Origin: a virus
DNA: 21,833 bases
IMG/VR virus record: IMGVR_UViG_3300032053_000603
Span: 1 to 21,833 of that record
Reading direction: 5' to 3' (one strand)
Shown: one piece after another, positions 1-21,833 of the stretch
Position numbering within the stretch: position 1 is the first letter of the stretch
Layout: each line of letters opens with the position of its first letter
The notes under the pieces: generated by a model
The model's database searches: none
Told to the model about the DNA's origin: nothing
Seen by the model: only the letters and a program-made list of their open reading frames with translations
Made by a program: the position numbers and the translations under genes

Positions 1-2
1 CC

Positions 3-128: not shown

Positions 129-131
129 ACG

Positions 132-2485: not shown

Positions 2486-2486
2486 A

Positions 2487-2855
2487 ATGGACAGGACCGT
2501 ATTCTATGCGAAGGAGACAGTAACAGATCAGGTGACGGGGGTGCGCCAGCAGGAGCTGGACTATCTGCACAACAGCCTGAACAACTTCGTGATGACATAT
2601 CTCCCGTCATATTATAGGGTGGAGGAGTCGGACATATACAGGCCCGACACGATCAGCCAGAGGAACTACGGCACGATAGGGTATTGGTGGATCATACTGT
2701 TTAAGAACGGCATACACGATCCATTCAACGACCCACAGGTGGGGCAGCAGTTTACCATACCGAACGTGCTGGACATATACAACTTCTGGAAGAACTTCAG
2801 GGTGGTCGCACCGAGGCCGAACGTGCTATTAAAGCCGTCAGGAGTTAGTCCATGA
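2487..2855 (+). CDS. Baseplate wedge protein, gp53/LysM-like
   Basis: A 122-residue protein. Residues 50-95 read YRPDTISQRNYG, then GYWWIILFKNGIHDPF, then VGQQFTIPN. This is the pattern of T4 gp53-type and LysM-type baseplate proteins: a start-up turn, a double Trp helix, an NxIxDPF turn, and a short strand ending in IP. In the T4 family this protein helps join wedges around the hub; in Mu/P2-like phages a LysM protein occupies the same place. It starts one base after the previous stop and overlaps the hub gene by four bases. It is shorter than T4 gp53 and looks like a compact version. The family assignment is fairly secure; the exact structural role is inferred. Confidence 0.72.
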   Translation: MDRTVFYAKETVTDQVTGVRQQELDYLHNSLNNFVMTYLPSYYRVEESDIYRPDTISQRNYGTIGYWWIILFKNGIHDPFNDPQVGQQFTIPNVLDIYNFWKNFRVVAPRPNVLLKPSGVSP

Positions 2856-4782: not shown

Positions 4783-5057
4783 TGGCAACGAAGAAGATAG
4801 CATGCCTGGGAGACCCGGCAAGCCACCCAGGCGTGATCAACACCAGTGGACAGACCGGAATGAATAAGGCAGGAGGAGTGGTGATAGCAGTACAGGGCGC
4901 GACATTTGCTTGTTTGACACCGGGGCACGGGACAACGCCGATAGCTCCTATAACAACGAAGAGCAGGATCGAGAGCAAGCTGATTATAACGGAAGGTGCG
5001 GTTGCAGGGTGCGGTGCAGTAATAGCCCCTCCTCCAAGAAAGGTGCTTGTAGAATGA
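4782..5057 (+). CDS. PAAR-domain spike tip protein
   Basis: A 91-residue protein starting on the last base of the spike stop. It has the three-part PAAR pattern: DPASHPG (residues 11-17), GATFACLTPGHG (39-50) and TEGAVAGCGAVIAPPP (70-85). PAAR proteins cap the gp5/VgrG needle with a small metal-bound cone. The likely ligands here are His15, Cys44, His49 and Cys77. The best-studied PAAR proteins use three His and one Cys, so this one seems to have two of each; ligand choice by eye is uncertain. It is a bare tip with no fused effector domain. Its stop overlaps the next start as ATGA. Confidence 0.88.
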   Translation: MATKKIACLGDPASHPGVINTSGQTGMNKAGGVVIAVQGATFACLTPGHGTTPIAPITTKSRIESKLIITEGAVAGCGAVIAPPPRKVLVE

Positions 5058-5188
5058 GCGGAGACGTAATGACGACTCAGAAGCTGATCGACTACAGTTG
5101 TGCTGGCATCCTTGGGATATTCATTTGTGCATGGGCCATCTCGGTAACATGGATGAACCTGTGGGGCAGAAAGAAAGGCAAGAAGTAA
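5054..5188 (+). CDS. Single-pass membrane microprotein (44 aa)
   Basis: A short frame from ATG 5054 to TAA 5186-5188, joined to the PAAR gene by an ATGA overlap. The same frame is open further upstream inside the PAAR gene, but that extension is just an alternative frame of PAAR, and the coupled ATG is the better start. The N-terminus is polar (MSGDVMTTQK). Residues 16-35 form one hydrophobic segment (CAGILGIFICAWAISVTW), followed by the basic tail WGRKKGKK. This predicts one membrane span with the positive end in the cytoplasm. The next gene begins one base after the stop. I do not recognise a family. A holin-like or virion-membrane role is possible, but nothing in the sequence proves it. 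Confidence 0.7.
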   Translation: MSGDVMTTQKLIDYSCAGILGIFICAWAISVTWMNLWGRKKGKK

Positions 5189-5189
5189 C

Positions 5190-5570
5190 ATGATGCAAGC
5201 AGAAGTATGGTCAGATCTGGATGCAAGGTTCTTGACCGACTCTCAGGGAGCGATCAAGAAGGTGACGAATGTCGATTCGGTCATCACATCTATCGACAAC
5301 ATCTTGGGAACAGCACGGCTGGAGCGGGTGATGCTCCCCGACTTTGCGATCAGGCTAAAGGACATCCTGTTCGAGCCGATGACGGAAGAGTTCATGCAGT
5401 TCCTTTCAGATCAGGTTAAGGCGGCGGTAGAGACCTGGGACGACAGGGTGACTGTCTTGGCCGTAGATGTATGGTTCGACCCAGACAAAAACTTTGTAGA
5501 GTTCCGTCTGGAGTTCGCCATAAAAAGCTTTCAGAATATATTTACCTACACAAAGAGAGTAAACTTCTAA
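5190..5570 (+). CDS. Baseplate wedge protein, gp25/TssE-like
   Basis: A 126-residue protein of the gp25-like lysozyme-like fold family (also TssE in type VI secretion). Residues 38-64 carry the family core: ILGTARLERVMLPDFA, then LFEPM. This is the usual I(L)xTxxGERxxxPxFG...LFEP pattern, with the first Gly of GER replaced by Leu. Two ATG codons are adjacent (5190 and 5193) and either could be used. The protein joins the inner wedge of the baseplate to the sheath, and the next gene encodes its usual partner, the gp6/J-like wedge. Size and position are normal for the family. Confidence 0.88.
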   Translation: MMQAEVWSDLDARFLTDSQGAIKKVTNVDSVITSIDNILGTARLERVMLPDFAIRLKDILFEPMTEEFMQFLSDQVKAAVETWDDRVTVLAVDVWFDPDKNFVEFRLEFAIKSFQNIFTYTKRVNF

Positions 5571-5580
5571 GGGGGATGAG

Positions 5581-7413
5581 ATGTCGACACTAACGCCACT
5601 TGACTATGCAAATTACGACTTTGATACGCTGACACAGCAGCTCGTAAACAGGCTAAAGGCCAACCCGGACTCACCGTGGAAGGACACCTACCGATCGTCA
5701 ACAGGGCAGATGCTGATAGAGCTGTATGCGTACATAGCGAACCTTGTTCTGTACTACATCGAACGCCGGGCAGAAGAGTCCTACATCGAGACGGCACAGC
5801 TAAAGTCAAGCGTGGTCAACCTTGTCAGGCTCGTTGGATACATTCCAACCAGAGCCGTGTCATCTACAGGCCAGCTTCAGTTCTCAAAGAATACGGCGTG
5901 GGCGGTAGATATCACGATCCCACAGTACACCGAATGCCGAACCAACGCAGGCATGAAGTATCTGACCAACGAGCAGAAGATCATACAGGCGGGGCTTGGT
6001 GTGGGTGATCCTGTAGACGTTCAAGGCATACAAGGATCTATAGTGCAAGTGACGTTCTCATCGAACGGAGCAACAGCGCCAGCGCAGTCGTACACCATAA
6101 GCGACACACAGATAGAGAACGACAGCTTCCCCGGCCTCATCGATCCTGATACGACGTTGGGCGTGTTCGTCAATGGCACACAGTGGCATAGGGTAAGCTC
6201 GTTCACGTCATCGACGGCTGACTCTCAGCACTACATGATACGGGCAGAGCTGGATGATACGGTATCAGTGCTATTTGGGAACAACCAGTTCGGCAAGGCG
6301 CCTGGAGTGGGAGACCAGATAATAGTCAAGTACATCAGGTCGGAAGGTGCATCCGGCAATGTGTTTGAGGCAGGCAAGATCATCAGCATATATTCCCCTT
6401 TGTACGACGCGAACAACGTCCTCGTGACAAGCAAGGTATCAGTAACCAATGCGAGCCCGAATGGACTATTCACCGGCGGTGCTGATTCGGAAAGCATAGA
6501 TGAGATAAGAGAGAACGCCCCGAATGTTTTCAAGACCGGTGATCGTGCGGTGACAAAATCGGACTGCATCTCCATACTCGAAAACATACCCGGGATAGCC
6601 AATGCGAACGTGTGGGGTGAGCAGGAGGAGTATCCTGCAGGGGGCGCCCCTGCAAGCGCAATGAATGCTGTTAAGATTGTCACCATATTCTCCAACTTTA
6701 CAGAGCCGACGCCAAACTTTAAGACCACGGTAATAAATCCCATCCTTACAACCAAGGCCACGCTCACGGTAAAGTTTGAGTACACATCTCCCAAGGTCAT
6801 CGAGATCGTGCCGACAGCAACAGTGCGGATCCATCAGGGCTATACGATATCCGCGGCAGAGCAGAATATCAACACCGTGCTGCAGGAGAACTTTGTGCTG
6901 GGGACGACAACAAGGCTGGGGCAATCGATAAGAGTGTCCCAGATCGTGCAGGCCATCAACTCGCTGGCAGAGGTGGCATACTTACACATGGAGCTTGTGG
7001 CGAGGAGCGAAAACCTGGCTAACTACGATGTGCACCATGACTTTGGATGCATACTCCTGGCAAATCCCATACAGACGGGTACGGTCAATGTGTATGTGGG
7101 GCAATCGGATGACGTGGCACTGTTGGTAGGAACGGATGACGGTGCAGGAACATTCACTCCCACAGTTCCAAATCCGCTTCCTCCAGGATTTCAGTTCCTT
7201 GGCGGTGAGGTGCAGTACAACGCAGGGCCGAACCCGATAGGATACTGTGGGTTGGATATGCTGAACCACTTGCTTCCGCCAGGAATGTTCATATGGGTTA
7301 AATATCTTCAGGACAATACCTCGATCGGATTCACGGGGGATATTATCGTGGACAAGGACGAGGTCTGCAGGCTGTGGGAGGATCAAGGCGACCTAACAAT
7401 CGACTTTGAATAA
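5581..7413 (+). CDS. Baseplate wedge protein, gp6/gpJ-like
   Basis: A 610-residue protein preceded by GGGGGATGAG. Residues 40-92 have the N-terminal helix pair of J-like proteins (TGQMLIELYAYIANL then YIETAQ, LVGYIP). At about residue 299 is the hallmark GGADSESIDEIRENAP, followed by AVTKSDCISILENIPGI, which matches the Baseplate_J family. In T4 the homologue gp6 forms the ring that holds the wedges together; in P2 and Mu the shorter gpJ/gp47 do the same. At 610 residues it is nearer the size of T4 gp6 than gpJ. The C-terminal 110 residues (from about 500) are beta-rich and look like an added module. It pairs with the gp25-like gene just upstream. Confidence 0.9.
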   Translation: MSTLTPLDYANYDFDTLTQQLVNRLKANPDSPWKDTYRSSTGQMLIELYAYIANLVLYYIERRAEESYIETAQLKSSVVNLVRLVGYIPTRAVSSTGQLQFSKNTAWAVDITIPQYTECRTNAGMKYLTNEQKIIQAGLGVGDPVDVQGIQGSIVQVTFSSNGATAPAQSYTISDTQIENDSFPGLIDPDTTLGVFVNGTQWHRVSSFTSSTADSQHYMIRAELDDTVSVLFGNNQFGKAPGVGDQIIVKYIRSEGASGNVFEAGKIISIYSPLYDANNVLVTSKVSVTNASPNGLFTGGADSESIDEIRENAPNVFKTGDRAVTKSDCISILENIPGIANANVWGEQEEYPAGGAPASAMNAVKIVTIFSNFTEPTPNFKTTVINPILTTKATLTVKFEYTSPKVIEIVPTATVRIHQGYTISAAEQNINTVLQENFVLGTTTRLGQSIRVSQIVQAINSLAEVAYLHMELVARSENLANYDVHHDFGCILLANPIQTGTVNVYVGQSDDVALLVGTDDGAGTFTPTVPNPLPPGFQFLGGEVQYNAGPNPIGYCGLDMLNHLLPPGMFIWVKYLQDNTSIGFTGDIIVDKDEVCRLWEDQGDLTIDFE

Positions 7414-7424
7414 AGGGGGATACA

Positions 7425-7934
7425 ATGATAGGCACAAAGAAAGGGTACAAAGGAGTATGGCGCATAGAGCACCGTGACAGGAACGGGAGGCTTTTGTGGT
7501 CAGAGGACAAAGAGAATGCGCTCACCAATCAGGGCGAGAATAATATCCTGAACGTGTACTTCAGGAACCTGGGAGCGCCCGCCACAGGGTTCTTCGTGGG
7601 GATGTGCAACGGATCGATGGACGTGGGAAGCACGCTTGCCACAGTGCCGAATGAGCCTGTAGGTAATGGGTATGCCCGTCAAGCCGTCCTCAGGGACGAA
7701 TCGGACTCAGGATGGCCTGTAATTGAGCTACATGAGGGAAATTACAGGGCTATATCGAAGCAGGTACAGTTCATGGCTGCTGGAGGCACTATTGGGCCTG
7801 TGAACATCATATTTCTGTGTACAGTGATTACAGGAATCAGTGGACTGCTGACGGCATTCGTCAACCTGTCCCTGCCAAGAACATTGCTGGATGGAGACAG
7901 CTTACTGGCGAGGTATACAGTAACGCTACAATAA
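7425..7934 (+). CDS. Small virion structural protein
   Basis: A 169-residue protein with GGGGGATACA before its ATG. It begins with an edge strand and turn (WRIEHRDRNGRLLWSEDKENALTNQG, where the core is the DRNGRLL turn) and ends with LLDGDSLLARYTVTLQ. The middle contains GMCNG, then ATVPNEP and YARQAVLRD. This layout (short strand, Asx-Gly turn, N-x-G-x-N-I helix, 'GTG-like' loop, Y-x-R, final GDxLxxxYxxxL strand) is common in small tail or appendage proteins of uncultured phages. It loosely resembles the 158-residue protein at 11945-12421. Position between gpJ-like and gpI-like genes suggests a baseplate-attached protein. Exact function unknown. Confidence 0.6.
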   Translation: MIGTKKGYKGVWRIEHRDRNGRLLWSEDKENALTNQGENNILNVYFRNLGAPATGFFVGMCNGSMDVGSTLATVPNEPVGNGYARQAVLRDESDSGWPVIELHEGNYRAISKQVQFMAAGGTIGPVNIIFLCTVITGISGLLTAFVNLSLPRTLLDGDSLLARYTVTLQ

Positions 7935-7937
7935 ACT

Positions 7938-10052
7938 ATGACATACACCGAAGAACTAGAATTTACGATACAATCGACGCAGCAACTGCTGAATAGGCCG
8001 CAGTCTGCCGTGGGCGAGTTCATAGCCTTTGGCGACGGCTTGAACCCGGCGTTCGATCACGATACGACATATCTTGAATTACGGCATGGCTTCGTCACGG
8101 TAACGGATGGGGCGGAGACGTATCAGGATGACGGCAACGGCAACCTCGTAAATGTTGCCGTGCCTATCGTGGCAGAGCTGTTCGCGGTAGGACGATCCCC
8201 AGGTGATCCGCTTATAAACTCACCGACATTCACAAATACGATAATCAATCCTGGGATACAGCCTGGATCGATCATGATAACGGACGGCGTTGAAACATTC
8301 TTTGATACAGGAATCGGGCCTCTGGAAGGAGCGCTGGGTGGATTTGGATTTGCTGACTATGCATCAGGCACGATAACCATCACGTTTACATACATACCTC
8401 CTCCCGGCACACAGATACTTATCAACTATACCAGCATAGCATCGGGATTGCATGGCACGGTGAACTATGTGTCAGGGCACATACACGTAGTGTTTACCAA
8501 TCCGCCCTTACTGGGCGCGATCATAACAACAAGCTACCAGTGGCAGCAGTATTATCCGACAGCGATATACGTTTTCAATCTGGGCATACTGATGACATCG
8601 ATAACGGACGTCGATGTCGTCGCATCGAAGTATGTGGATCTGATACAGCTCGTGCCTGAGAAGTTCAGGGGCGCCGAGATCCTGCAGGAATATCTGCGGG
8701 CAGTAGGTCTATACACAGGCATATGGCTGACCAAGATCGACAACATGCTGAAGCTGTTGGATATATATTCTGTGAGCGACCAGTTTAAGGAGACGATACC
8801 AGCACATAACCTGGTGTTCGATGAAGAGTACATGTCGAGGCTGGGAGCGCTCATAGGGCTGACGATCACCAAAGGAAGGAACCCTGGAGAGACGGAAGAG
8901 CAGTATAGGGACAGGTTACGACGCCAGCTCATCAATGCGATCGACTGGTATAAGATCAAAGGTACATATCAGGCACTACAGGACGCAATATACATCACGA
9001 ACCAGGCCATAGCAGTGAAAGACCTGTACACCAACGACTACATCAACTTCATTCAGGAGGACTGGTTCATAGCAAGCTATCCAGGGGAGAACCCACCGGG
9101 GCTGGATGCTACATACTACAAGTCACCGCACTTCGGATTGCAGATCGTTCTGAACCAGGTATTTATGCAGCCACCGGCTAACCCATACCTGTGGAAGGGT
9201 GATGACAAGTTTGCGAACGTGAGGGCGCTGGTTGAGGAGATACGGCCTGTCAACACCGTGCCGACATTCATCATTGAGATGGACGCACAGTGCAATGAGG
9301 ACGGCACCTTATATACAGTATCAGCAACACAGGTTAAGTCCATAAGACTATATGAGCCGTGGGTATTCACCAGGCAGTACTTTGATCAGGATCACCTGGG
9401 GCCGGGGCAGACATTCCACTTCGACAACGACATGATCATACCCATAACGGCAGAGACGTATGGGACTGGTGATGGAGGAACCGTAACCTTCATTCACACA
9501 ATGGACAACGTGGGATTCAAGATTAGAGAGGGATTCGTCACCGTAACGGATGGGGTAGAGATATTCATAGATAACGGGGACGGTACGCTCACAGGCAACC
9601 TTGGTGGTGTAGGAACTATTAACTATACGAATGGAATATGTAATGTAACATTCCAAGGCGCTCCTGCTAAGGGCGTGGGCATAACGACCGACTATCAATA
9701 CTTCTTCGGATCAGGAAGGTTCTTTGACTTCTCCCAGTTGGCATTTTTGGAATCTGTGACAGTATGGAAGCTGGGAACAGGCAACAAGGGAGTATCACCG
9801 GATACACCCGGATGGAACCTCGTAACCATAACACATACAGGAACGATGGCGTTCCCCCAAACGATACGAATCCTTCCCGATAGGACAGAGTACGAAGTAG
9901 TAGTGAATCAATCAATAGTAGAAGCGGGCGGATTCTCCGAGCTTGGGCTATACCTAAGCGACGGTACAACGTTGGTGATAGGATGCACATTTCCTGACAT
10001 ATTCAAAATAGCTGGCGTCGAACTGAGGATCATACTAAGGCTACTAAAATAA
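7938..10052 (+). CDS. gpI-like baseplate protein with inserted beta modules
   Basis: A 704-residue protein. Residues about 232-360 match the P2 gpI/tail-protein-I family: YVDLIQLVPEKF, then VGLYTGIWLTKIDNML, then EEYMSRLGALIGL, then EEQYRDRLRRQLINAI, then KGTYQALQDAI. This domain attaches fibres to the J-like wedge. Around it are related beta modules recognised by FVTVTDGxE...GxVNYxxGxxxVxF: one at 511-589, one at 89-168, and one split into 33-72 and 170-203, so the second lies inside the first. The C-terminus (600-704) is another beta domain. P2 gpI is about 176 residues, so this is a greatly enlarged version. The modules may contact a fibre or a receptor; that is inference. Confidence 0.8.
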   Translation: MTYTEELEFTIQSTQQLLNRPQSAVGEFIAFGDGLNPAFDHDTTYLELRHGFVTVTDGAETYQDDGNGNLVNVAVPIVAELFAVGRSPGDPLINSPTFTNTIINPGIQPGSIMITDGVETFFDTGIGPLEGALGGFGFADYASGTITITFTYIPPPGTQILINYTSIASGLHGTVNYVSGHIHVVFTNPPLLGAIITTSYQWQQYYPTAIYVFNLGILMTSITDVDVVASKYVDLIQLVPEKFRGAEILQEYLRAVGLYTGIWLTKIDNMLKLLDIYSVSDQFKETIPAHNLVFDEEYMSRLGALIGLTITKGRNPGETEEQYRDRLRRQLINAIDWYKIKGTYQALQDAIYITNQAIAVKDLYTNDYINFIQEDWFIASYPGENPPGLDATYYKSPHFGLQIVLNQVFMQPPANPYLWKGDDKFANVRALVEEIRPVNTVPTFIIEMDAQCNEDGTLYTVSATQVKSIRLYEPWVFTRQYFDQDHLGPGQTFHFDNDMIIPITAETYGTGDGGTVTFIHTMDNVGFKIREGFVTVTDGVEIFIDNGDGTLTGNLGGVGTINYTNGICNVTFQGAPAKGVGITTDYQYFFGSGRFFDFSQLAFLESVTVWKLGTGNKGVSPDTPGWNLVTITHTGTMAFPQTIRILPDRTEYEVVVNQSIVEAGGFSELGLYLSDGTTLVIGCTFPDIFKIAGVELRIILRLLK
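8034..8546 (+). repeat. Nested beta modules in the gpI-like protein
   Basis: Residues 33-72 and 170-203 of the gpI-like protein together align with the uninterrupted module at residues 511-589 (9468-9704): FVTVTDGAETYQDD and LHGTVNYVSGHIHVVF match FVTVTDGVEIFIDN and GVGTINYTNGICNVTF. Between the two halves sits a complete copy (residues 89-168) with SIMITDGVETFFD and FADYASGTITITF. The bases encoding FVTVTDG are almost identical at 8091-8111 and 9534-9554, which suggests a fairly recent copy event. Confidence 0.7.
9468..9704 (+). repeat. Third, uninterrupted copy of the FVTVTDG beta module
   Basis: Residues 511-589 of the gpI-like protein hold a full module beginning GDGGTVTFIH and running through FVTVTDGVEIFIDN, GDGTLTGNLGG and GTINYTNGICNVTF to ITTDYQYF. 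It is the reference for recognising the split copy near the N-terminus. Confidence 0.75.
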
Positions 10053-10064
10053 CGGAGGAACAAG

Positions 10065-11291
10065 ATGGCTACCCAAACTATAAGAGTAAGATTCTTCGAC
10101 CCGGTTGAAGCGCACGTGGTCAACGAACGATTCCAGGATGTCCGAGTGGTGGGCATATATTCGGGTGGGTATCTTTCGAGAGTCAACGACACCCAGGTAA
10201 ACGTGTCACAGCTCGTGTGTGAGATAAGCGACGGGCAGTACCAGATTAGAATGATGACTGACGGGCCTCAATTGGTAAACGTAACGAGTGGCACTCAGTA
10301 CGTTATACTACGATGGTTGTACAATGGCACAGTATCAAACGATGTGCAATTCCTTGCTGTTGATTCGGGCGGCCTTCAGGTAAATGATGTTATCATAGGG
10401 TTCTGTCATTACACAGGGCCAGCGCTGGATAGTTTTTTATATGACAAAAGAACCACTCCTGATACACACGACCTGTTCCTAAAGGTAGAGCCGACTGACC
10501 CCACAACAATGAGCATTAAGGTAAGACCGGGCAGAGTTAACTATGGAGTGCTTAATTACTCCGTTCCTGACACTGACTTGCTGCTTGCAATGCCTGCTGC
10601 CAACCCAAGGATTGATGTGGTGTATATTGATACGGACGGTGTGCCTAAGGTCAAGACAGGGGATGAAGCAGCCAGCCCTATCGCAAAACCCTTTCAAGGA
10701 AAGATCGCGCTGGCAAAGATAGCCATGTCTCCTGGAATGGGCACGATAACAAAAGAGGATATTACTGATGTAAGGTCATTTATCACTGGCGGCATAGTTC
10801 CCGGTCAAGTGGCTGGAGATGTGCTATACTTTAATGGAGACCCACTTGTAAACGCCTGGGACAGGCTGCCAATCGGCACAGCAGGACAACGACTGCGGGT
10901 AAATGTAGGAGCAACGGGGCTGGAGTATGTTGATGTATACAGATTGCTGGTATGGTACGTTGATGGCAATCTGGTCATAGGAAACAGCAAGAGCGTCACG
11001 CTACGGATGCCATTCAACGGAGCATTCGTGCGCGCCGATGCATATGTTGTATCAGCTCCGTTGGGCACTCCAATCAAAGTGCAGATCAACAAGAACGGTG
11101 GGAACATCTGGTTCCCCGCACCAGATCACAGGCTCACAATATTAGCAGGTGTGACGAACGGAAACACCCTGTCATTTGACACGATCACGTTCGTAGCAGG
11201 CGACGTGTTCACGATGGACTTGAACCAGGTAGGAAGCACAACAGCAGGCATGAGCCTGACTGTTCTGCTAACGGTCAAGGAGACTCCGTAA
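10065..11291 (+). CDS. Tail fibre-like protein
   Basis: A 408-residue protein with GGAGGAACAAG before its ATG. After a beta N-terminus, residues about 148-235 form a conserved phage-fibre block: MSIKVRPGRVNYG, then NPRIDVVYIDTDG, then GKIALAKIAM. Near residue 249 is VAGDVLYFNGD, then WDRLPIGTAGQRLRV, a stalk motif frequent in tail fibres. The last 120 residues are beta-rich (RLLVWYVDGNLVIG, TLRMPFNGAFVRADAY, KVQINKNGGNIW) and look like a jelly-roll tip. It directly follows the gpI-like protein, the usual place for a fibre. The family is recognised from these motifs. The receptor is unknown. Confidence 0.78.
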   Translation: MATQTIRVRFFDPVEAHVVNERFQDVRVVGIYSGGYLSRVNDTQVNVSQLVCEISDGQYQIRMMTDGPQLVNVTSGTQYVILRWLYNGTVSNDVQFLAVDSGGLQVNDVIIGFCHYTGPALDSFLYDKRTTPDTHDLFLKVEPTDPTTMSIKVRPGRVNYGVLNYSVPDTDLLLAMPAANPRIDVVYIDTDGVPKVKTGDEAASPIAKPFQGKIALAKIAMSPGMGTITKEDITDVRSFITGGIVPGQVAGDVLYFNGDPLVNAWDRLPIGTAGQRLRVNVGATGLEYVDVYRLLVWYVDGNLVIGNSKSVTLRMPFNGAFVRADAYVVSAPLGTPIKVQINKNGGNIWFPAPDHRLTILAGVTNGNTLSFDTITFVAGDVFTMDLNQVGSTTAGMSLTVLLTVKETP

Positions 11292-11737
11292 TGGCGCAAA
11301 GCGTATTACTGTTTAGCTTTCCCGCGCAGTCACAGAGCGCAAGGAATGTGGCTTCAATAACACAGACACAGAACTTCCTTACACCAATAGACGTAACAAA
11401 GGTGGTATATAGTGGGACTGCATACGCATCTACGGATGGATACAGCTCGTTCTACAACAAAGGATGGTCAGTTACCATTGAGATATATTCCGATGGGGCG
11501 TGGGTGCTTGTTGATAGCTGTGGTGGGACGTCAAGCGGCGGCGGCAGCCAGGGGTGCACTGTCGGTGGCACAAAAGAAGGTACAGTAGCGGTGCCTGTGC
11601 TATATCCGAACGTGACAGCAGCACGGTGGACAGCGACCGCGCATGCATACTCTGACCACGACCAATATGTAGCAGTGACATTAAGTGCATATCAACTGTT
11701 CGTTCTATCAGTTAGCGATACGGGGTACATAGTATGA
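11291..11737 (+). CDS. Small beta-rich virion protein, Gly/Ser-rich
   Basis: A 148-residue protein whose ATG shares one base with the fibre stop. Residues 45-75 form strands (SVTIEIYSDGAWVLVDS), followed by a Gly/Ser/Cys loop (CGGTSSGGGSQGCTVGG) and more strands (RWTATAHAYSDHDQYVAVTL). The two Cys flanking the glycine run could form a disulfide. I do not recognise a family. Being coupled to the fibre gene, it may form a tip, cap or decoration of the fibre. The stop overlaps the next small gene as ATGA. Confidence 0.6.
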   Translation: MAQSVLLFSFPAQSQSARNVASITQTQNFLTPIDVTKVVYSGTAYASTDGYSSFYNKGWSVTIEIYSDGAWVLVDSCGGTSSGGGSQGCTVGGTKEGTVAVPVLYPNVTAARWTATAHAYSDHDQYVAVTLSAYQLFVLSVSDTGYIV

Positions 11738-12471: not shown

Positions 12472-12993
12472 ATGAAAAGGAAGAAGGGCATATACAGAGT
12501 GCCAAAGGGACAATTCATCAACCTCGATGTAGGTTGTGGGTTGAATAAGACCAAAGGGTATGTGGGTATGGACATTCGAAAGGTCAAGGGCGTTGACATC
12601 GTCCATGACGTGGAAAGTGTTCCATATCCACTATCCGATGGCTGCTGCAACATGATTCTGATGAGCCATCTGATAGAGCACATCTGCCCGAAGCGCATGA
12701 TACACGTTATGAATGAGCTTTGGCGGATCATGAAGGTGGGAGGCCACCTTTACATATCGACTCCTTATGCAGGATCGCGAGGATGTTGGCAGGATCCGAC
12801 GCACTGTGGGCACTGGAACGAGACGACACCGTTGTACTTCGACCCGTATCCGTATGTACTGAAGGGCGAGCGGAGCATCCTGTATGACATCTACAAAGCA
12901 AAGCCATGGCAGTTGAGAGAGGACTCCTGGTTCGCCACCGGCAACCTGCAGATCATATATGAGAAGAGGAGGAACGATGAAAAGGGCAAATAG
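12472..12993 (+). CDS. SAM-dependent methyltransferase (class I, Methyltransf_11-like)
   Basis: A 173-residue protein. Residues 18-23 are LDVGCG, the glycine-rich SAM-binding motif I. GMD at 32-34 lies where the acidic residue that binds the ribose is expected, and DVESVPYPLSDG (46-57) plus HLIEH (66-70) match the later motifs of class I enzymes acting on small or sugar substrates. The lid is short, so it is a minimal enzyme. The next gene, a glycosyltransferase, overlaps it by 17 bases, so the two products probably act in one pathway, such as making and capping a sugar on a virion protein or host surface. The substrate cannot be read from the sequence. Confidence 0.88.
   Translation: MKRKKGIYRVPKGQFINLDVGCGLNKTKGYVGMDIRKVKGVDIVHDVESVPYPLSDGCCNMILMSHLIEHICPKRMIHVMNELWRIMKVGGHLYISTPYAGSRGCWQDPTHCGHWNETTPLYFDPYPYVLKGERSILYDIYKAKPWQLREDSWFATGNLQIIYEKRRNDEKGK
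12966..12972 (+). promoter_or_regulatory. Shine-Dalgarno that decides the glycosyltransferase start
   Basis: GAGGAGG lies four bases before ATG 12977. A further in-frame ATG exists at 12959 but has no such site and would add six residues (MRRGGT), so 12977 is the preferred start. The site lies inside the 3' end of the methyltransferase gene. Confidence 0.7.
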
Positions 12994-13888
12994 ATATCAG
13001 AGACTGGTAGCATTGACCAAAGAGGTCAAGAACAACGTGCCCGCCATGCGGAAGATATGCATAGCAGTACCAACGACAGGAAGCATGCGGATTGAGTGGA
13101 TGATGGGCAGGTACGGATGCATCATGCCGATCAACTGGTCGCATGGAGAGATATTGCAGTACTTCGACCAGTTCAGCCCGATAGGATATGTCGTGGCCGA
13201 CGCAAGGAACATCTGCGTTGAGTACTCGATTGCGCAGAAGTTCGAGTGGACGCTGTTCATAGACCACGACACAGTCATACCTCCGACGACGTTCCTTTTG
13301 CTCGGGGAGTGGATGCGCGCAATGACGCACCCGATCGTGGGGGGTCTCTACTATTGCAAAGGAAGCCACCCGGAGCCACTGGTGTTCAGAGGCAGGGGCA
13401 CCGGATATTATGATAGGTGGAAGTTCGGCGATGCTGTAGAGGTCGATGCACTGCCGATGGGATGCACGCTCATTCACAACTCGATCCTGAAACATCTGTA
13501 CGACAACAGCGAAGTGTATACCGTGGGGTCAATATACGGCCCCATAGTCGTGAGGCGCGTGTTCCAGACACCGAAGATATCGTGGCAGGATCCTGAGAAT
13601 GGCAGGTACAACTCGTACGCCGCCACGGAAGATCTCCCACTCTTCGATAGGATCATGAAAGACAAAGTCCTGGAGAAGCTGGGATGGAAGAAGCTGGCGA
13701 AGAAGCAGTATCCGTTCATCTGTGACACGCGGATCTTCTGCCAGCACATAGACGAGGCCGGGATACAGTACCCCGGGCAGATGTACAAGAACACAAAGCA
13801 GTATACAGGCAGTGACCTGCAGAAGATAGAAAGGAAAGGGGTATTCAATGTCGGACAATCAAAAGGGAGCCAATACTCCGGAGCTTGA
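12977..13888 (+). CDS. GT-A family glycosyltransferase (GT2-like)
   Basis: A 303-residue protein from the ATG served by GAGGAGG. It starts KICIAVPTTGS (from about residue 21), the first strand and loop of GT-A enzymes. VVADARNICVEYS follows, the ARN motif of many phage-encoded glycosyltransferases. FIDHDTVIPP at 94-103 contains D96-H97-D98, the DxD motif that holds the metal and nucleotide sugar. GLYYCKG and MGCTLIHNSIL form the acceptor half. The gene overlaps the methyltransferase by 17 bases and the next gene by 41 bases, so all three are co-translated. It may glycosylate a fibre protein or alter host glycans; donor and acceptor are unknown. Confidence 0.85.
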   Translation: MKRANRYQRLVALTKEVKNNVPAMRKICIAVPTTGSMRIEWMMGRYGCIMPINWSHGEILQYFDQFSPIGYVVADARNICVEYSIAQKFEWTLFIDHDTVIPPTTFLLLGEWMRAMTHPIVGGLYYCKGSHPEPLVFRGRGTGYYDRWKFGDAVEVDALPMGCTLIHNSILKHLYDNSEVYTVGSIYGPIVVRRVFQTPKISWQDPENGRYNSYAATEDLPLFDRIMKDKVLEKLGWKKLAKKQYPFICDTRIFCQHIDEAGIQYPGQMYKNTKQYTGSDLQKIERKGVFNVGQSKGSQYSGA

Positions 13889-14128: not shown

Positions 14129-17100
14129 ATGGCGTATACATATTCTGACTCAGGGCTACAATACGGCGGAGCGGGTTCTGATTACGACGGCAACCCGATT
14201 ACGTTATTGGTCGATGTTTACGACTCGATAACGGCATCGGAACAGGTGTCGATGGACATGCCGATTGGCACCAACGTCTTTGATACGGTCACGATCACGG
14301 AGGCAGTATCAGAAAGTTTGGATGTCCTCAATGCCGATGTCTCCGATTCGATAGCGATCGTGGAGGATCTAATAGGCGAAGTGGCATTGCCTGCCGACGT
14401 CTTCGATACGATCACGATTACGGAGCAAGTAGACATAAATCTGGACGTCCTCAACACAGACATCTTCGATACGATATCGATACTGGAAGAGATCACCACC
14501 GAGCTGGACGTCCTTAATATAACACCCGGTGAAGACATCCTTATCACCGAGGATGTCGGAGTGATGGATTTTCCCCTCAACGTCGGCCCTCTCACGGAAG
14601 ATATACTTATCACAGAAGCCGTCACCATATACCCCGACCTACAAGAGCTCAGTGTATTTGATACCATCACGATCACGGAGAGCGCGACAACCCTCCTGGA
14701 CGTGCTGTGCGTATTCGTGTACGATAGTGTGCAATATGGTGAGCCGACAGATCTGTATCCAGACCCGCTGTATGCGAGTGCTGTCGATACGATCTCGATT
14801 ATAGAGAACATTACAGAGTCCCTGGATGAGTTGTTTACAGATGTCTTCGATACCATCACGATCACAGAGTACACCGAAGAGTTTACGGACATACTGTATG
14901 CAGATGTCTTCGATACAATCACGATAGCAGAGAGCGCCTCACAGTTCCTGGACGTTCTCAATCCAGACGTGTTCGATGATGTGGCAATCACTGAAGATGA
15001 GACCACGCTACTTACCACGCTCAATGTTAGCGAGTTCGATTCAATAAGTATCGAAGAAGCGCTGACCCTATTCCTCGACGTGCTTAATTCCTCTATATAT
15101 GAGGACGTAGCGATCACCGAAGATGTAGGAGCCCTGGACTTCCCGCTCAACATAGGGCCGATATCCGATACGATAAGTACGACAGAAGTTGTAACGGCAT
15201 ATTTAGATGCACTGTGGACGTCGGTGCAGGACGATGTAACAATAGAAGAATTTGTATCTGATGTTCTGGATGTGCTGTATATATCTGTTGATGATACGGC
15301 AACGATTACAGAAACTGCTGATACGGCTCCCGGCATATTGTTTGTCGATGTATTTGATGCGACAACGATAACAGACCTCGTCACTAACATACGCCTGTCC
15401 GCCCTATTCGCAAGCGCGTTCGACACTGTAACGATAGCAGAGAATATAGATCTGTCACCCGATCCTCTATTTGCAAGCGTAGGCGACGACATAACAATAT
15501 TAGAGGATGTGAGCGTATCACCCGATCCACTTATTACGGGAACGGTATACGACGACATCAACATCACAGAGGATGAGACGACACTCTTGGATGCTCTCAA
15601 TCCAGACGTGTTCGATACGATAACGATCAGCGAGAACGAGACGACGCTCCTGGATGTCCTCACCCCGGACGTGTTCGATACGATAACGATCACAGAGGAC
15701 GAGAGCGTATTCCTCAACGCGCTATTCATAAACGAGTTTGAAGACATACCTATAACCGAGGACGAGACGACGCTCCTGCCAGAGCTCATCATAAGTGCAG
15801 AAGATGATATCAGCACCACAGAGAATACGGATCAATATCTGGACGAGTTGTTTGTGGACGTATTCGATATGGTATCTATATTTGACATTGCGCCGCTCAA
15901 CCCGGATGAGCTGTTCGCAACGATGTTCGAGGACATCCACATCACAGAGTCCGTAGCCGACTACGAGACAGAACTCTTTATAAATGTAGTAGACTTAGAC
16001 ATTATTACGGTCACTGAGAACGAGACCACTTTACTGACAACACTCGTTCCGAGCATGTTTGATACCCTCACGATCACAGAGGACATTACCTTGTTCCTCG
16101 ACGCGCTGTACCTGACCGTAATCGACTCACCTACGATATCCGAATTTGTACAGGCACAGCTCGACGCCCTGTTCGCATCCGTTACAGACGATGTCGCCAT
16201 AACGGAGTTTGCCGACATGCCGCTTGACGTGTTGGCCGTCGATGTGATCGACACCGTATCGATAGCCGAAGCGGCAGGAATGCTGGACTTCCCGCTGTTC
16301 GTAGGGCCGGTATCAGAGAACATAACGATCAGCGAAGTGCCGACCCTGGGCCTCGATGCCCTGTACGAATCGATAGAAGATACGATCATAACGATAGACA
16401 TATTCCTGCCAGACCTGCAGAGCAACATCTTTGCGACTGAGGGGACGAAGCACAGCTATAATGGAAGCCCAGCAACATATAGTGACCCCCACGTAACCTA
16501 CGACGGTGAAGAAGCGACAGTTATTATCATCAGTGAGTTCGTGCAGATGGGGCTGGTATCAACAATATCTGTCGGCGAAGACATCACGATTACAGAGTCA
16601 CTGACCGACTTCGTGGACACGCTGTACCTATCTGTGACCGAAGACATCACGATCACAGAGAATGTCACCAACAACATTCCGTTCATCGCCTTCGGGGTAT
16701 ATGACGACATCACGATCACAGAGGACATTGCAGCAGAGTCGTTTGTAGGCGTGAACACCTCCGAAACCGTCACGATCACAGAGGTCACCGACCTTCAGCT
16801 GGATCAGCTGTTCATAGACGTATCAGAAAATATAACCATCGATGACTACCCACAATTCGGGATAGGCGTCGAGATTCTCTCTGAAGAAGACATAGTGATA
16901 CAAGAGTATGTAAACCTCGCGGTGCCCGTGCGGTTTACCGTATTTGATACAGGCTCCATCGTAGAGGACGTGCTCCTGTACATGGCGATAGGACTGCTAG
17001 CGGAAGATCTGGTCAGCATCACGGAGTTCTTTGACTACAACCAGATATTCGGGATGTCGGCGTTCGACGACATTACCATAACAGAGGACTTCAACTACAC

Positions 17101-17407
17101 CCAAGAGTTTGACATGTTCGCCTTCGACGACGTGACCATAAGTGAGGCGACAGCCGAGGAGATGCCGGACGAGGGCGTGGTGTTCGAAGATATAATGATC
17201 ATCGAAGAAGTGATGATGTTCCTGACCGAGCTGGCAATCCCGCTCGTGTTTGAGAGCATAATCATAGACGACACGTTCACAAGGGAACAGCTGATAATCA
17301 TCAGGGGCATGCGGCGAATGCGTCTGGAATCAAAGATACCCAACCCGAAGTTCAAAACACAGAGCAAGATTGACTACTTTACACACGTTCAAGAAGTGGG
17401 GGTCTAA
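14129..17407 (+). CDS. Large acidic protein of about 48 21-residue repeats
   Basis: A 1092-residue protein with GAGGGA before its ATG. From about residue 25 to 1048 it consists of repeats of about 21 residues, typified by DVFDTITITE followed by DETTLLDVLNP. By eye I count about 48 copies of the DxIxIxE strand. I find only about three Lys/Arg residues in the first 1048, so it is extremely acidic; the last 44 residues are basic (RGMRRMRLESK, PKFKTQSK). Two blocks are separated at about 766-798 by a Tyr-rich linker. The regular strand spacing suggests a beta-solenoid or beta-roll, possibly bound to divalent ions. Position among fibre genes suggests a long virion fibre or adhesin. No family named with confidence. 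Confidence 0.75.
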   Translation: MAYTYSDSGLQYGGAGSDYDGNPITLLVDVYDSITASEQVSMDMPIGTNVFDTVTITEAVSESLDVLNADVSDSIAIVEDLIGEVALPADVFDTITITEQVDINLDVLNTDIFDTISILEEITTELDVLNITPGEDILITEDVGVMDFPLNVGPLTEDILITEAVTIYPDLQELSVFDTITITESATTLLDVLCVFVYDSVQYGEPTDLYPDPLYASAVDTISIIENITESLDELFTDVFDTITITEYTEEFTDILYADVFDTITIAESASQFLDVLNPDVFDDVAITEDETTLLTTLNVSEFDSISIEEALTLFLDVLNSSIYEDVAITEDVGALDFPLNIGPISDTISTTEVVTAYLDALWTSVQDDVTIEEFVSDVLDVLYISVDDTATITETADTAPGILFVDVFDATTITDLVTNIRLSALFASAFDTVTIAENIDLSPDPLFASVGDDITILEDVSVSPDPLITGTVYDDINITEDETTLLDALNPDVFDTITISENETTLLDVLTPDVFDTITITEDESVFLNALFINEFEDIPITEDETTLLPELIISAEDDISTTENTDQYLDELFVDVFDMVSIFDIAPLNPDELFATMFEDIHITESVADYETELFINVVDLDIITVTENETTLLTTLVPSMFDTLTITEDITLFLDALYLTVIDSPTISEFVQAQLDALFASVTDDVAITEFADMPLDVLAVDVIDTVSIAEAAGMLDFPLFVGPVSENITISEVPTLGLDALYESIEDTIITIDIFLPDLQSNIFATEGTKHSYNGSPATYSDPHVTYDGEEATVIIISEFVQMGLVSTISVGEDITITESLTDFVDTLYLSVTEDITITENVTNNIPFIAFGVYDDITITEDIAAESFVGVNTSETVTITEVTDLQLDQLFIDVSENITIDDYPQFGIGVEILSEEDIVIQEYVNLAVPVRFTVFDTGSIVEDVLLYMAIGLLAEDLVSITEFFDYNQIFGMSAFDDITITEDFNYTQEFDMFAFDDVTISEATAEEMPDEGVVFEDIMIIEEVMMFLTELAIPLVFESIIIDDTFTREQLIIIRGMRRMRLESKIPNPKFKTQSKIDYFTHVQEVGV
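14203..17272 (+). repeat. 63-base tandem repeat array in the acidic protein
   Basis: The array has a 63-base period that keeps the reading frame. Adjacent copies are closest at about 15602-15727, where the stretch coding for DVFDTITI recurs 63 bases apart with only one or two changes. Copies elsewhere have drifted, and a few are interrupted (for example near 14730 and at 16425-16520). In-frame repeats of this kind can shrink or grow by recombination. Confidence 0.85.
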
Positions 17408-17721: not shown

Positions 17722-18132
17722 ATGCCAAAGTACCGTAACGACACTGCCGCTCGATTAGTAATCGATGGGCAACCCCTGGAAGTGGGTGATACAATAGAGA
17801 CGACAGGGTGGTACGTTATCGCGGGGCTGACTAAGCTCTCGGACGACCCTGTAAACGTGCCTGTTATCCTGTCACAGGTAGTAGCTGTATCGGGAGATGT
17901 TGATATACCGACCACAGCTAACAACCTAAATGTGGTAAGGTACACGATCAAGATCCGGGGACTTGTGGGGTCGGCAGGAAACACGATCGCATTCAACGTC
18001 GCAGGCACAACGCCAGTACTAGATATTGAAGAGGGCGACGAGTTCGTGTTTAACTGCATGGGCAGGTCAATCGTCAAGCTCGTCTGCACAATAGCCGCCG
18101 GCTCAATAAAGGTCGACGTGCTGAGATGGTAA
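17722..18132 (+). CDS. Small appendage protein, first of a paralogous pair
   Basis: A 136-residue protein with AAAGGAGGAGGAAACA before its ATG. Residues 1-50 are a separate short module (YRNDTAARLVIDGQPLEVGD, then TGWYVIAGLTKLSDDP). Residues 51-136 match the next protein: VDIPTTANNLNVVRYTIKIRG, then AGNTIAFNVAGTTPVLDIEEGD, then GRSIVKLV and KVDVLRW. The shared part looks like a compact beta barrel. The N-terminal module is often found on small proteins encoded near phage fibres and may attach it to the virion. No function is known. Confidence 0.62.
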   Translation: MPKYRNDTAARLVIDGQPLEVGDTIETTGWYVIAGLTKLSDDPVNVPVILSQVVAVSGDVDIPTTANNLNVVRYTIKIRGLVGSAGNTIAFNVAGTTPVLDIEEGDEFVFNCMGRSIVKLVCTIAAGSIKVDVLRW

Positions 18133-18144
18133 AAGGGGGTTTCG

Positions 18145-18438
18145 ATGCCTAACACTTTAATCAACCCCGTAGTATTGTCGACGCTGGTTATAGCACCGGG
18201 GACGGTGACCATACCAGCTACTGTAAACGGCCTGCGTGTGCAGAGGTATGCTATCTTCATACGGGGGATCGCGGGCACAGGCAACACCATTAAGTACAAC
18301 GTTGCAGGCGCGACTCCGATATTGGATGTGGAGGTAGGGGACAAGTATGTAATCAGATGCAACGGCAGGTCGATCGTTGCCCTTATCGTCGCATTAGGTG
18401 TCGGCGGTAAGATAAAGATAGACGTTCTAAAAGACTAA
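18145..18438 (+). CDS. Small appendage protein, second of a paralogous pair
   Basis: A 97-residue protein with AAAAGGGGG before its ATG. It aligns along nearly its whole length with residues 51-136 of the preceding protein (VTIPATVNGLRVQRYAIFIRG; GNTIKYNVAGATPILDVEVGD; GRSIVALI; KIKIDVLKD) and lacks the N-terminal module. A tandem duplication with loss or gain of that module is the simplest account. The two might form a mixed assembly; that is inference. Confidence 0.62.
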   Translation: MPNTLINPVVLSTLVIAPGTVTIPATVNGLRVQRYAIFIRGIAGTGNTIKYNVAGATPILDVEVGDKYVIRCNGRSIVALIVALGVGGKIKIDVLKD

Positions 18439-19012: not shown

Positions 19013-21833
19013 ATGAGAACAGGTATAAAGGAAGTAAAAGGCACACTCAAGGGAGGCAACTACACGCTAGTCGCCTCCAAATATATAGGTGACCCCGACG
19101 GGTATACCAAGCTTCTTACGCATTTCGACGGCCAGAACGCAGGTACTGCTATAGTTGACAGCGGAGATTCTGGGTACGTAGTTACTCAGGTAGGCACAGC
19201 GTCGTTGTCTACAGCCTTCCGTAAGATTGGTGGTGGATCCTGTTTCTTTGATGGCAATAGCGATTGGTTGACTGTCCCTGATAGTACCGACTGGTATTTT
19301 GGAACGATGGACTTTACACTAGACTTGTGGGTGAGGTTTAACAGTGTATCTCAATCCGTTCAAACCTTAATAGCACAATTTGTTGACGGGAGTAACTTTT
19401 GGGAACTTGATTATAACTTTGGGGGTGCGTCCGAAGATAAGCTGACATTTTATGCTTATTCGGGGGGAGAGTTAGGACATTTTGTAACAACTAGCACAAT
19501 GGGTTTGCTAGTGAATACTTGGTATCATATAGCCTTAGTACGTTCGGGTTCTACTTGCTATATGTTTCTGAACGGAACATCTCTTGCGGTAACACAAACC
19601 CAGCCGTTTGGAACGATGCCAGACCTGGCAGCTACGTTACGTGTTGGTAGTAATGGAGGCACTCAATATTCAAGTACGTACATAGACGAACTCCGTATCT
19701 CCAACACAGCTCGATGGACCCAGAACTTCACTCCACAGACAACCCCGTACACATCCGATTCCTACACCAAGCTCCTCCTCCACATGGAACCTCACGATGT
19801 CTGTGGCAACATCCCCACCTTCAACTCCACGGCCAAGCTATCTTCAAATCCAATTAAGAAGTTCGGAGCTGGATCTTTGCTCCTAGATGGCAACTCTGAC
19901 TATGTTACATACCCTGATTCAGCAGACTGGGCTTGGGGAACAGGAGCATTTACAGTCGATTTTTGGTATAAGTGTGGAGGTTCAGTTGGAGGATATATTG
20001 CTTTCTTTAACCAAGGCGAGAGCAATGTAAAGTATTCCGCTCTTTATTGGACTGGAAATACCTTACGCTATCAATGTTATAATAATGCAAATGTTATATA
20101 TGTATCGTGGTCTATAACTGAAGCAGTTTTAATTGGTAGTGCCACAGGTACTTGGAAGCATTTGGCAATAGTGAGAGATGGAACTGGAGCCGACTACTCA
20201 TTAAAATGTTACATAGACGGGGTATCCTTAGGAAATGGAACTTTAACTGGAGGTGCTTGGAATGCAGCACTTATAGATTGGGCAGGTGTATTTGAAGTAG
20301 GTGGGATGCAAGCTAACTCATTTTATTTCAATGGCTATATTGATGAGTTCCGTATTGTCAAAGGTACAGCTAAATGGACAGCGAACTTCACCCCATCTAC
20401 GACAGCATATACTGGCTCAGACATACCGACCAACGGGCTATTGCTCCATCTTGATTATGATTATCTTGATAGCTCTATTGCGGCTCACGGCGCAGGCACG
20501 GGGGTTGGTACAGCTCAAGTCACGACAATCAGCAGGATAGGTGCTGGCTCACTGCTCCTCGATGGTAACAGCGACTATGTAACCTATCCAGATAGTGCTG
20601 ACTGGAATTTAGGAAATACATTCACTGTAGATACTTGGATTAAGGTTAATGGTGCCACTGGAGATTTACAACAAATATGTGGGCAATTTCCAAATAATCA
20701 AAATGCTACTGTCTTATTGCAGGTTTATCCTGAAGGTAATGTTATATATGCTGGTTTTTATGTAGCTTCAGCCTGGACATTACGATTTTCAGCCCCTTAC
20801 ACGCCTCGATATGGGGTGTGGCAACATATAGCACTGGTAAGAGTTGATGGCGGTAATGCGGACACTTCTTGGAGAATCTTTCTTGATGGAGTGCAACTTG
20901 CATTAACAAAGACTCTTGGAAACTGGAACGCCGCTTTCCCGGTTCTTACAGCTTCTATGTATGTTGGTATGTCGCAAAACGCTTATTATTTTAACGGATA
21001 CATTGACGAACTCCGAATCTCTAAGGATACAGCCCGTTGGACTGCTGGTTTTACACCGCAAACTACAGCATACACTGCAGATACTTATACCAAGCTCCTC
21101 TGCCACTTCGACTACGATTACATGGACTCATCCACCGTAGGCAACCCCACAGGCACCGGGTACGGAGCAGTAGCCACCTCTGCAGTGCAGAGCAAGTTCG
21201 GTGGTGGATCGCTGCTGTTGATTAGTGCAAACAGTCAGTATGTAACATACCCGTCTACCACAGACTTTGGTTTTGGAACGGGGGATTTTACAATAGACTT
21301 TTGGATATATTTTAACACAGTCAACACCATACAAGTGCTGATGGATTCCACTACTAACGACAGAACTCTGATTATGGTGCATACAAACGGTAACTTATAT
21401 CTCGATCTTGTAGGAGTTGGTTACGGTTCAGCGTGGGTACCGTCAGCAACGACGTGGTACCATTTAGCGTTCACAAGATCTGGAACCAACCTAAGGTTCT
21501 TTGTCAATGGTGTCCAAGTCGGAGTAACTAAAACATCAAGCGATAACATTGCATCACAAGGAATTTATATAGGCAGACAAAACTCAGGAACCCCATATTA
21601 TACAAATGGCTACATCGACGAACTCCGAATCTCCAAGGGCATAGCCCGTTGGACATCCAACTTCACCCCACCAACCTCAGCTTACACCACCGATTGGTAC
21701 ACCAAGCTCCTCTGCCACTTCGACACCGATTTCTCAGACGCCTCTGGGATCTCGCACGGAGCAGGTACTGGAGTTGCAACAGCTCAAGTAACCTCACCAT
21801 CGAGGTTTGGATCGACATCGCTGCTTCTCAATG
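19013..21833 (+). CDS. Giant LamG/concanavalin-A-like repeat protein (partial)
   Basis: An open frame starts at ATG 19013 (AAAGGGG upstream) and continues without a stop to the right edge, giving at least 940 residues. After a 30-residue start it repeats a module of 204-222 residues. Each begins near TKLLCHFD, has GGSLLLDGNSDYVTYPDS, a strand FTVDFW, WxHxALVR, a YFNGYIDELRIS strand and WTANFTPxTTAYT. This is the Laminin_G_3/concanavalin-A-like fold, common in adhesins that bind sugars. Four modules are complete and a fifth has begun. The cores are AT-richer than their borders. It is probably a receptor-binding fibre or surface adhesin; the ligand is unknown. Confidence 0.85.
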   Translation, partial: MRTGIKEVKGTLKGGNYTLVASKYIGDPDGYTKLLTHFDGQNAGTAIVDSGDSGYVVTQVGTASLSTAFRKIGGGSCFFDGNSDWLTVPDSTDWYFGTMDFTLDLWVRFNSVSQSVQTLIAQFVDGSNFWELDYNFGGASEDKLTFYAYSGGELGHFVTTSTMGLLVNTWYHIALVRSGSTCYMFLNGTSLAVTQTQPFGTMPDLAATLRVGSNGGTQYSSTYIDELRISNTARWTQNFTPQTTPYTSDSYTKLLLHMEPHDVCGNIPTFNSTAKLSSNPIKKFGAGSLLLDGNSDYVTYPDSADWAWGTGAFTVDFWYKCGGSVGGYIAFFNQGESNVKYSALYWTGNTLRYQCYNNANVIYVSWSITEAVLIGSATGTWKHLAIVRDGTGADYSLKCYIDGVSLGNGTLTGGAWNAALIDWAGVFEVGGMQANSFYFNGYIDEFRIVKGTAKWTANFTPSTTAYTGSDIPTNGLLLHLDYDYLDSSIAAHGAGTGVGTAQVTTISRIGAGSLLLDGNSDYVTYPDSADWNLGNTFTVDTWIKVNGATGDLQQICGQFPNNQNATVLLQVYPEGNVIYAGFYVASAWTLRFSAPYTPRYGVWQHIALVRVDGGNADTSWRIFLDGVQLALTKTLGNWNAAFPVLTASMYVGMSQNAYYFNGYIDELRISKDTARWTAGFTPQTTAYTADTYTKLLCHFDYDYMDSSTVGNPTGTGYGAVATSAVQSKFGGGSLLLISANSQYVTYPSTTDFGFGTGDFTIDFWIYFNTVNTIQVLMDSTTNDRTLIMVHTNGNLYLDLVGVGYGSAWVPSATTWYHLAFTRSGTNLRFFVNGVQVGVTKTSSDNIASQGIYIGRQNSGTPYYTNGYIDELRISKGIARWTSNFTPPTSAYTTDWYTKLLCHFDTDFSDASGISHGAGTGVATAQVTSPSRFGSTSLLLN
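19109..21833 (+). repeat. LamG module repeats with conserved boundaries
   Basis: The module starts (first Lys of TKLL or its equivalent) fall at 19109, 19769, 20435, 21092 and 21704, giving periods of 660, 666, 657 and 612 bases. The last two starts share at least 20 identical bases, and the YIDELRIS-coding end of each module is also highly similar. The middle of each module varies much more. Confidence 0.85.

Follow-up and report, generated by a model that had tools for sequence, protein, structure and literature searches.

Whether a phage can change a binding protein one domain at a time is the question raised by the last gene of a 21,833-base stretch of viral DNA (hereafter the window, whose sequence is the virus record itself). 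This gene encodes LamG domains in series, and the original prediction held that their AT-rich cores, set between GC-rich boundaries, are imported and exchanged by recombination at conserved borders.

A tandem LamG array downstream of baseplate genes

The gene direction in the window is the + strand. Within the first 10 kb, several genes have matches to baseplate or tail families (Pfam, PHROG), including those for a hub/lysozyme-type protein at 4039-4782 (PHROG 430, E 1.6e-19) and a Baseplate_J protein at 5581-7413 (Pfam E 1.4e-13); neither gp37 nor gp38 is named among the window's Pfam and PHROG matches. A methyltransferase-like gene (PHROG 6636, E 1.8e-8) and a glycosyltransferase-like gene (PHROG 34859, E 4.8e-4) lie inside the tail region at 12472-13888 and overlap by 35 nt. 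At 14129-17407, a 1092-aa protein with no Pfam match carries many short D-x-I-x-I-T-E-x type repeats; GC3 falls to ~0.3 across 50 codons near 15179 within its gene, to which a 533-aa ORF (14218-15819, - strand) is antisense. Two neighbouring small genes at 17722-18438 are apparent paralogues whose translations have a common N-V-A-G-x-T-P-x-L-D motif.

The last gene, from 19013 onward, comprises four complete Laminin_G_3 modules and one partial module. PF13385 matches it in four stretches with 230.8 bits (curated cut-off 27.6; E 9.4e-69), and each of the four complete modules passes this cut-off singly. The features of the array are as follows, with joints and cores placed by column mapping to the module profile.

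19013-21833, + strand: gene for the tandem LamG (Laminin_G_3) protein; ATG at 19013, open at the window end, at least 940 aa
19103-19762, + strand: module M1, from the module alignment; PF13385 match 19250-19714
19268-19678, + strand: core of M1 (profile columns 56-186), GC3 ~0.34
19679-19903, + strand: joint M1/M2 (YIDELRIS... through the start of M2), the zone kept in other phages while the core is replaced
19763-20425, + strand: module M2, from the module alignment; PF13385 match 19886-20362
19904-20335, + strand: core of M2, GC3 ~0.21
20336-20578, + strand: joint M2/M3
20426-21085, + strand: module M3, from the module alignment; PF13385 match 20561-21028
20579-20998, + strand: core of M3, GC3 ~0.22; contains the predicted 34% G+C stretch
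20999-21241, + strand: joint M3/M4; contains the predicted 63% G+C stretch
21086-21697, + strand: module M4, from the module alignment; PF13385 match; AlphaFold2 beta sandwich, mean pLDDT 91.4
21242-21610, + strand: core of M4, GC3 ~0.36
21611-21833, + strand: joint M4/M5, incomplete
21698-21833, + strand: module M5, from the module alignment; first ~45 residues only, cut by the window end

Each core spans ~140 residues and most of the beta sandwich, and each joint is made up of the last ~27 residues of one domain and the first ~50 of the next. The structure of M4 was modeled from an alignment (A2) of 51 sequences, the four window modules and 47 of 55 candidates. The predicted fold is all-beta and has the jelly-roll beta sandwich of Laminin_G_3; in this model, the terminal strands, residues 2-6 and 175-184, come from joint sequence, and most of the remainder comes from the core. 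The closest PDB structure is domain 4 of the arabinanase AbnA (5hon, TM 0.68). Viral LamG models mostly reach TM 0.7-0.9 against the M4 model, and its viral structural matches carry LamG, tail or baseplate wedge annotations. The predicted fold, together with the position after the baseplate genes, suggests that the array protein is a glycan-binding virion protein.

Cores and joints differ at silent sites

The window itself contains the modules, the borders and a contrast in composition between border and core. The hand counts behind the original prediction, 62 G+C of 180 bases at 20581-20760 and 38 of 60 at 21121-21180, are exact, and the sliding G+C profile it called for (120 bases) rises and falls with the module period. 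GC3 is 0.276 in cores and 0.490 in borders (460 and 412 degenerate codons, respectively), and G+C at codon positions 1 and 2 is nearly equal (0.463 and 0.486); the contrast is mainly a silent-site effect. The GC3 difference of 0.214 was reached by 0 of 5000 protein-preserving shuffles and by 4 of 871 circular label shifts, and because of these four the chance estimate stays at ~0.005.

Upstream genes have a GC3 of 0.48-0.73, mostly ~0.6, compared with 0.41 for the array gene overall. Relative to these genes, cores favour TTA, TTT, TAT, AAT, CAA and ATA. Three of these codons had been described as scarce upstream, and they are: TTA makes up 0.05 of Leu codons there and 0.41 in cores, and the corresponding values are 0.33 and 0.83 for TTT and 0.31 and 0.55 for AAT. 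Border usage also departs from that of upstream genes (mean log-likelihood −0.058; the upstream genes score +0.096 by the same measure). Compared to upstream usage, borders differ by +0.03 at C3 and −0.12 at G3, and cores by −0.18 and −0.14, respectively. The borders are hence not simply native: C-ending codons are regained, while G-ending codons are still low. The window's C3 contrast ranks 6th among 114 viral loci.

The description of the boundaries as nearly repeated at base level stands in part: border copies match at 60-74% ungapped identity across 84-156 nt, reaching 82% only for 38-nt stretches, but their silent sites are near random. Where amino acids are identical, the same codon is used at a rate of 0.423 in borders (0.381 expected from local usage) and 0.455 in cores (0.422 expected). 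The borders are therefore conserved at the protein level, and their silent sites are close to saturation. Homogenization of the joints at the DNA level inside the window array was considered and rejected on these rates, the borders lying near expectation and not above the cores.

The composition contrast recurs in other loci

We compared module relatives from several sources. A module profile, with the best 80 of 462 confirmed IMG/VR matches kept, gave 276 domains in 81 loci and 60 clusters at 85% protein identity on viral contigs. With amino-acid correction, border GC3 exceeds core GC3 in 42 of these 60 clusters (p 7.8e-7; 1.3e-6 when the window is left out). The same direction holds for 44 of 56 in a second viral panel (p 3e-7), drawn with a different query and the best 80 of 91 confirmed matches, and for 30 of 40 on bacterial or archaeal contigs (p 0.001). 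In a larger set of 216 loci and 174 clusters, 157 independent loci had enough flanking codons and sites, of which 116 show the contrast (p 4e-15). It is absent from isolate loci L102-L108, where borders exceed cores in three of seven. Contigs with module relatives (L109-L158) are binned to Woesearchaeota, Paceibacterota, Omnitrophota, Rhizobiales and others.

Compared to neighbouring genes, borders are as expected (mean −0.005) and cores fall short (−0.078). The core shortfall is larger where the GC3 of the neighbours is higher: in viral arrays of at least three modules (n = 64), the slope on flank GC3 is −0.39 for cores and −0.01 for borders. In AT-rich loci (flank GC3 <0.3), the contrast is gone but its sign is not reversed (26 of 50 positive, p 0.08). 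If cores were drawn from phages of mixed composition, the contrast might be expected to change sign there, which counts against exchange as its source. One- and two-module genes show the same AT shift in their cores, so composition alone is no proof of import.

Position-dependent codon selection would produce such a contrast with no import at all, with joints keeping C-ending codons favoured in translation and cores, where selection is weaker or different, drifting to an AT-rich mutational equilibrium. The first-panel border excess is indeed confined to C-ending codons (C3 +0.061, in 50 of 60; G3 +0.007, not significant), likewise in the window; cores lie under background even in AT-rich loci, and the core deficit extends to one- and two-module genes. 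On the other hand, GC3 is predicted by border membership (t 6.7) and not by column conservation (t 0.83), and motifs conserved within cores show no enrichment; translational accuracy at conserved sites was rejected as the cause on these grounds. The second viral panel has lower G3 in cores too (41 of 56, p 6e-6), and wholesale core replacement, described below, is left unexplained. We regard codon selection as an unlikely explanation, if one of real weight, although the richness of joints in C-ending codons may have a translational component. GC-biased conversion at joints was also rejected, since the rise in C-ending codons is not matched by G-ending ones in either the window or the first panel; the second-panel G3 difference, which is weaker, qualifies this rejection.

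Joints were also compared with flanking genes in the first panel, where 58 of 60 clusters had enough flanking codons and sites. In loci L051, L056 and L074, joint GC3 is 0.58-0.59 and that of flanking genes is 0.30-0.33, which the idea that joints follow the resident genome does not explain. These GC-rich joints also speak against recent acquisition of the whole gene from an AT-rich phage, after which the joints would have shifted faster than the cores to the resident composition. The low GC3 of the array gene relative to its upstream neighbours, with G-ending codons low in both zones, fits such an origin, yet the joints are the most conserved part and would be expected to change most slowly. 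We consider acquisition of this kind improbable.

Whole cores are replaced between conserved joints in related phages

In related phages, cores are replaced, single cores are retained, cores and borders are incongruent and module number varies. Cores do swap between fixed borders, as had been proposed, in several IMG/VR phage groups. One pair, L180 and L197, shares 99.1% identity across 2674 nt, as far as the beginning of core 1. This core is unalignable, a 366-nt joint follows at 91.8%, and core 2 is again unalignable; past it, identity is 97.7% over 710 nt, including the whole of module 3, and 97.5% further downstream. Two successive cores have thus been replaced and the third kept, with flanks and joints at 92-99%. 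In both phages, border GC3 is 0.62-0.70 and core GC3 0.29-0.39.

A second group separates the histories of core and border. L051 and L056 have flanks at ~90% (1403 and 475 nt; 90.7% as sister measure) and successive joints with 89% (272 nt), 85% (247 nt) and 77% (264 nt) identity, and no core aligns whole, only short pieces. The 5′ border of module 2 is 0.94 identical between them, yet core 2 is 0.40. Core 2 of L056 is instead 0.91 identical to that of L160, despite a flank at 75% and a 5′ border at 0.75, and the remaining cores of L160 are at 0.41-0.42 to their L056 counterparts. Core 2 of L056 thus resembles its counterpart in a distant phage more than the one in its sister, and the matching core and border trees that would have spoken for vertical descent are contradicted for these three loci. 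Similarly, module 2 of L200 and L208 has a core at 0.99 and a 3′ border at 1.00 with a 5′ border at 0.64 (flanks 81%), and L190 and L213 keep one core at 0.99 with five others at 0.38-0.44. Neighbouring cores are replaced or retained whole in L180/L197, L190/L213 and L037/L042. ORFs closed at both ends have four modules in L049, L051 and L056, five in L074 and six in L160, so module number varies among related arrays too.

Pairs were compared more broadly where each array has at least three modules and mean border identity is at least 0.70, after deduplication and removal of near-identical flanks (98% for a set of 29 pairs, 98.5% for a set of 85, the latter also without cores at or above 0.999). 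Among the 85 orthologous module pairs, which are not 85 independent events because they are border-selected and fall into five flank-linked groups, 57 of them in one loose group, core identity is below 0.5 in 72, 0.5-0.8 in eight and at least 0.8 in five. These five are all at or above 0.91, and the distribution is mainly two-peaked; unrelated cores have a median of 0.385 and a 99% quantile of 0.477 (30,171 pairs). Strictly all-or-none identity, as in the first 29 pairs (28 low, one high), was rejected on the eight intermediates of the larger set.

Cores might instead diverge in place, by fast point mutation or diversifying selection, with purifying selection on borders and no exchange. The cores may be exposed lectin faces, and some loci do show graded divergence: cyanophages L105-L108 have cores at 0.56-0.64 and borders at 0.76-0.86, and Rhizobium phages L102-L104 have flanks at 87-93% and cores at 0.54-0.77, with local drops to 0.41-0.50. 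Some one- and two-module genes can evolve vertically, as do L029-L035 relative to L095 (5′ border 0.51, core ~0.55, 3′ border 0.68-0.69). Against divergence in place stand the two-peaked identities, with 72 of 85 cores near background, the wholesale replacement or retention of adjacent cores in one array pair, and core 2 of L056, which matches the distant L160 better than the sister L051. It is contradicted for the arrays named above and possible for single-module genes; as a general account we consider it very improbable. With the counter-cases in one- and two-module genes, core replacement is best documented in tandem arrays.

A diversity-generating retroelement, which makes adenine-specific changes, has a negligible probability as the mutator of LamG cores: the cores differ along their whole length and in length, and PF00078 has 0 matches in the 21.8 kb fragment, that is, no reverse transcriptase. 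Phage receptor-binding proteins are common targets of such elements (PMC10743442).

The edges of the replaced unit are defined. Nucleotide identity, as a mean of 30 swapped pairs, stays at ~0.7-0.88 as far as profile column 56, drops to 0.2-0.5 through the core, short conserved motifs excepted, and recovers to 0.73-0.84 where NGYIDELRI begins (column 185). GC3 is high in columns 187-213 and from column 1 to ~42. The conservation profile of swapped pairs and the GC3 profile are correlated (Pearson 0.44), with two of 207 circular shifts as high.

Relatives of the window array

Peptide patterns for the whole array protein found no relative in IMG/VR, and DNA similarity found none of the array among 50,697 phage records. 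Of two border DNA patterns, the first gave one contig (L022) and the second none, and the window's M3 core as query gave two weak local matches only. Contig L005 is near-identical to the window and ends at window position 11348, short of the array. It is at least 99.5% identical per 500 bases from ~1001 to 11348 and 66-68% at 1-1000, where the first gene has 73.8% protein identity; by this comparison, window positions 1-1000 are a second sharply bounded variable stretch. With no relative found that covers the array, core exchange in the window is inferred from anatomy and composition. The predicted exchange of cores holds for relatives, where swaps are seen, and would extend to the window by likeness.

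The 3′ border of M4 has 80% nucleotide identity to its counterparts in L051, L060 and L028, a value higher than the 99% quantile (0.77) of unrelated borders. The idea that the window and other phages have one DNA joint in common at silent sites was rejected (same codon 0.324, expected 0.321).

A proposed route for core exchange

Taken together, we think it probable that the gene encodes a virion LamG array whose cores, of mixed composition, are exchanged between conserved joints by recombination, with a likely benefit for binding. The gene product would be a string of LamG-type (concanavalin A-like) domains carried on the virion. If related phages infect the same cell, homologous recombination at two consecutive joints would swap the intervening core, and nothing else in the gene, joints included, would change. 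Repeated exchange would mix cores from phages that differ in base composition, so that joints would follow the resident genome in composition and cores would trail it. The likely benefit is that the bound glycan or receptor could be changed at one array position at a time.

The observed replacements are most simply explained by homologous recombination within a pair of consecutive joints. For phage Rad52-like recombinases, 79% identity over 980 nt is enough and 67% over 500 nt is below detection (PMC3945230). Joints of ~250-370 nt at 77-99% identity are in or near the workable range by those figures. Since window borders match one another at 60-74% and those of sister phages at 77-99%, exchange with related phages is likelier than exchange within the window array. 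We infer that the window array works alike, that its recombination is homologous and that host binding is affected.

We put forward, tentatively and as somewhat short of an even chance, that joints act as DNA-level recombination handles across lineages, with LamG cores forming a common pool for phages of differing composition. Some joints are common to loci without a flank match of at least 300 nt: in L060 and L101, borders B5 and B3 are at 0.84 and 0.85 and core pieces at 0.28-0.61. In 13 loci with similar joints, a group chosen after that similarity was seen, joint GC3 is weakly tied to flanks (slope 0.35; 0.84 for the 45 remaining loci). If this is true, shared-handle joints would be comparable in effect to integron cassettes, without a dedicated recombinase.

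Comparison with known systems

The distal tail-fibre adhesins of T-even phages, reportedly described by Tetart et al. in 1998, have a specificity segment swapped by recombination between conserved motifs. The likeness is an adhesin segment swapped at conserved motifs; the difference is that here several lectin domains follow one another, with a two-domain joint as the motif and each position exchanged independently. Phage LamG/ConA-like virion proteins (PHROG 3545, 13163 and others) are of the same fold and family as the array, and the isolate LamG stretches compared here have one to three modules, unlike the long arrays.

Smug et al. 2023 (PMC10684548) describe, in the sections most relevant here, tail protein fragments shuffled among close phages, with a near-identical part kept and a neighbouring domain exchanged. 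That exchange is of terminal domains, whereas here internal cores are exchanged between two fixed joints, repeatedly along the gene; the words 'lectin', 'laminin' and 'concanavalin' are absent from that text. Metagenomic islands of cryoconite phages (PMC7468147) hold variants of ~40% identity in genomes up to 99% identical, which recur in new combinations and are read there as recombination. Those islands involve genes and large domains; LamG is not mentioned there, and the relevant passages give no base-composition signature. The relaxed recombination of Rad52-like enzymes (PMC3945230) is a plausible machine for joint-based exchange here. Across titles and the starts of abstracts, a body of literature without preprints and most subscription journals, neither serial LamG-core replacement nor this composition signature appears.

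The signature, third-position composition combined with joint conservation, could flag exchangeable receptor-type cassettes from single contigs of uncultured phages. The arrays also offer a natural series of variants that differ at one binding position and agree at the neighbouring ones, and core identity could thereby be related to host. The swapping of phage adhesins by recombination between conserved motifs is known, and the serial replacement of LamG cores would be a new form of it; this takes the general idea of mosaic phage adhesins to defined exchange units with defined edges.
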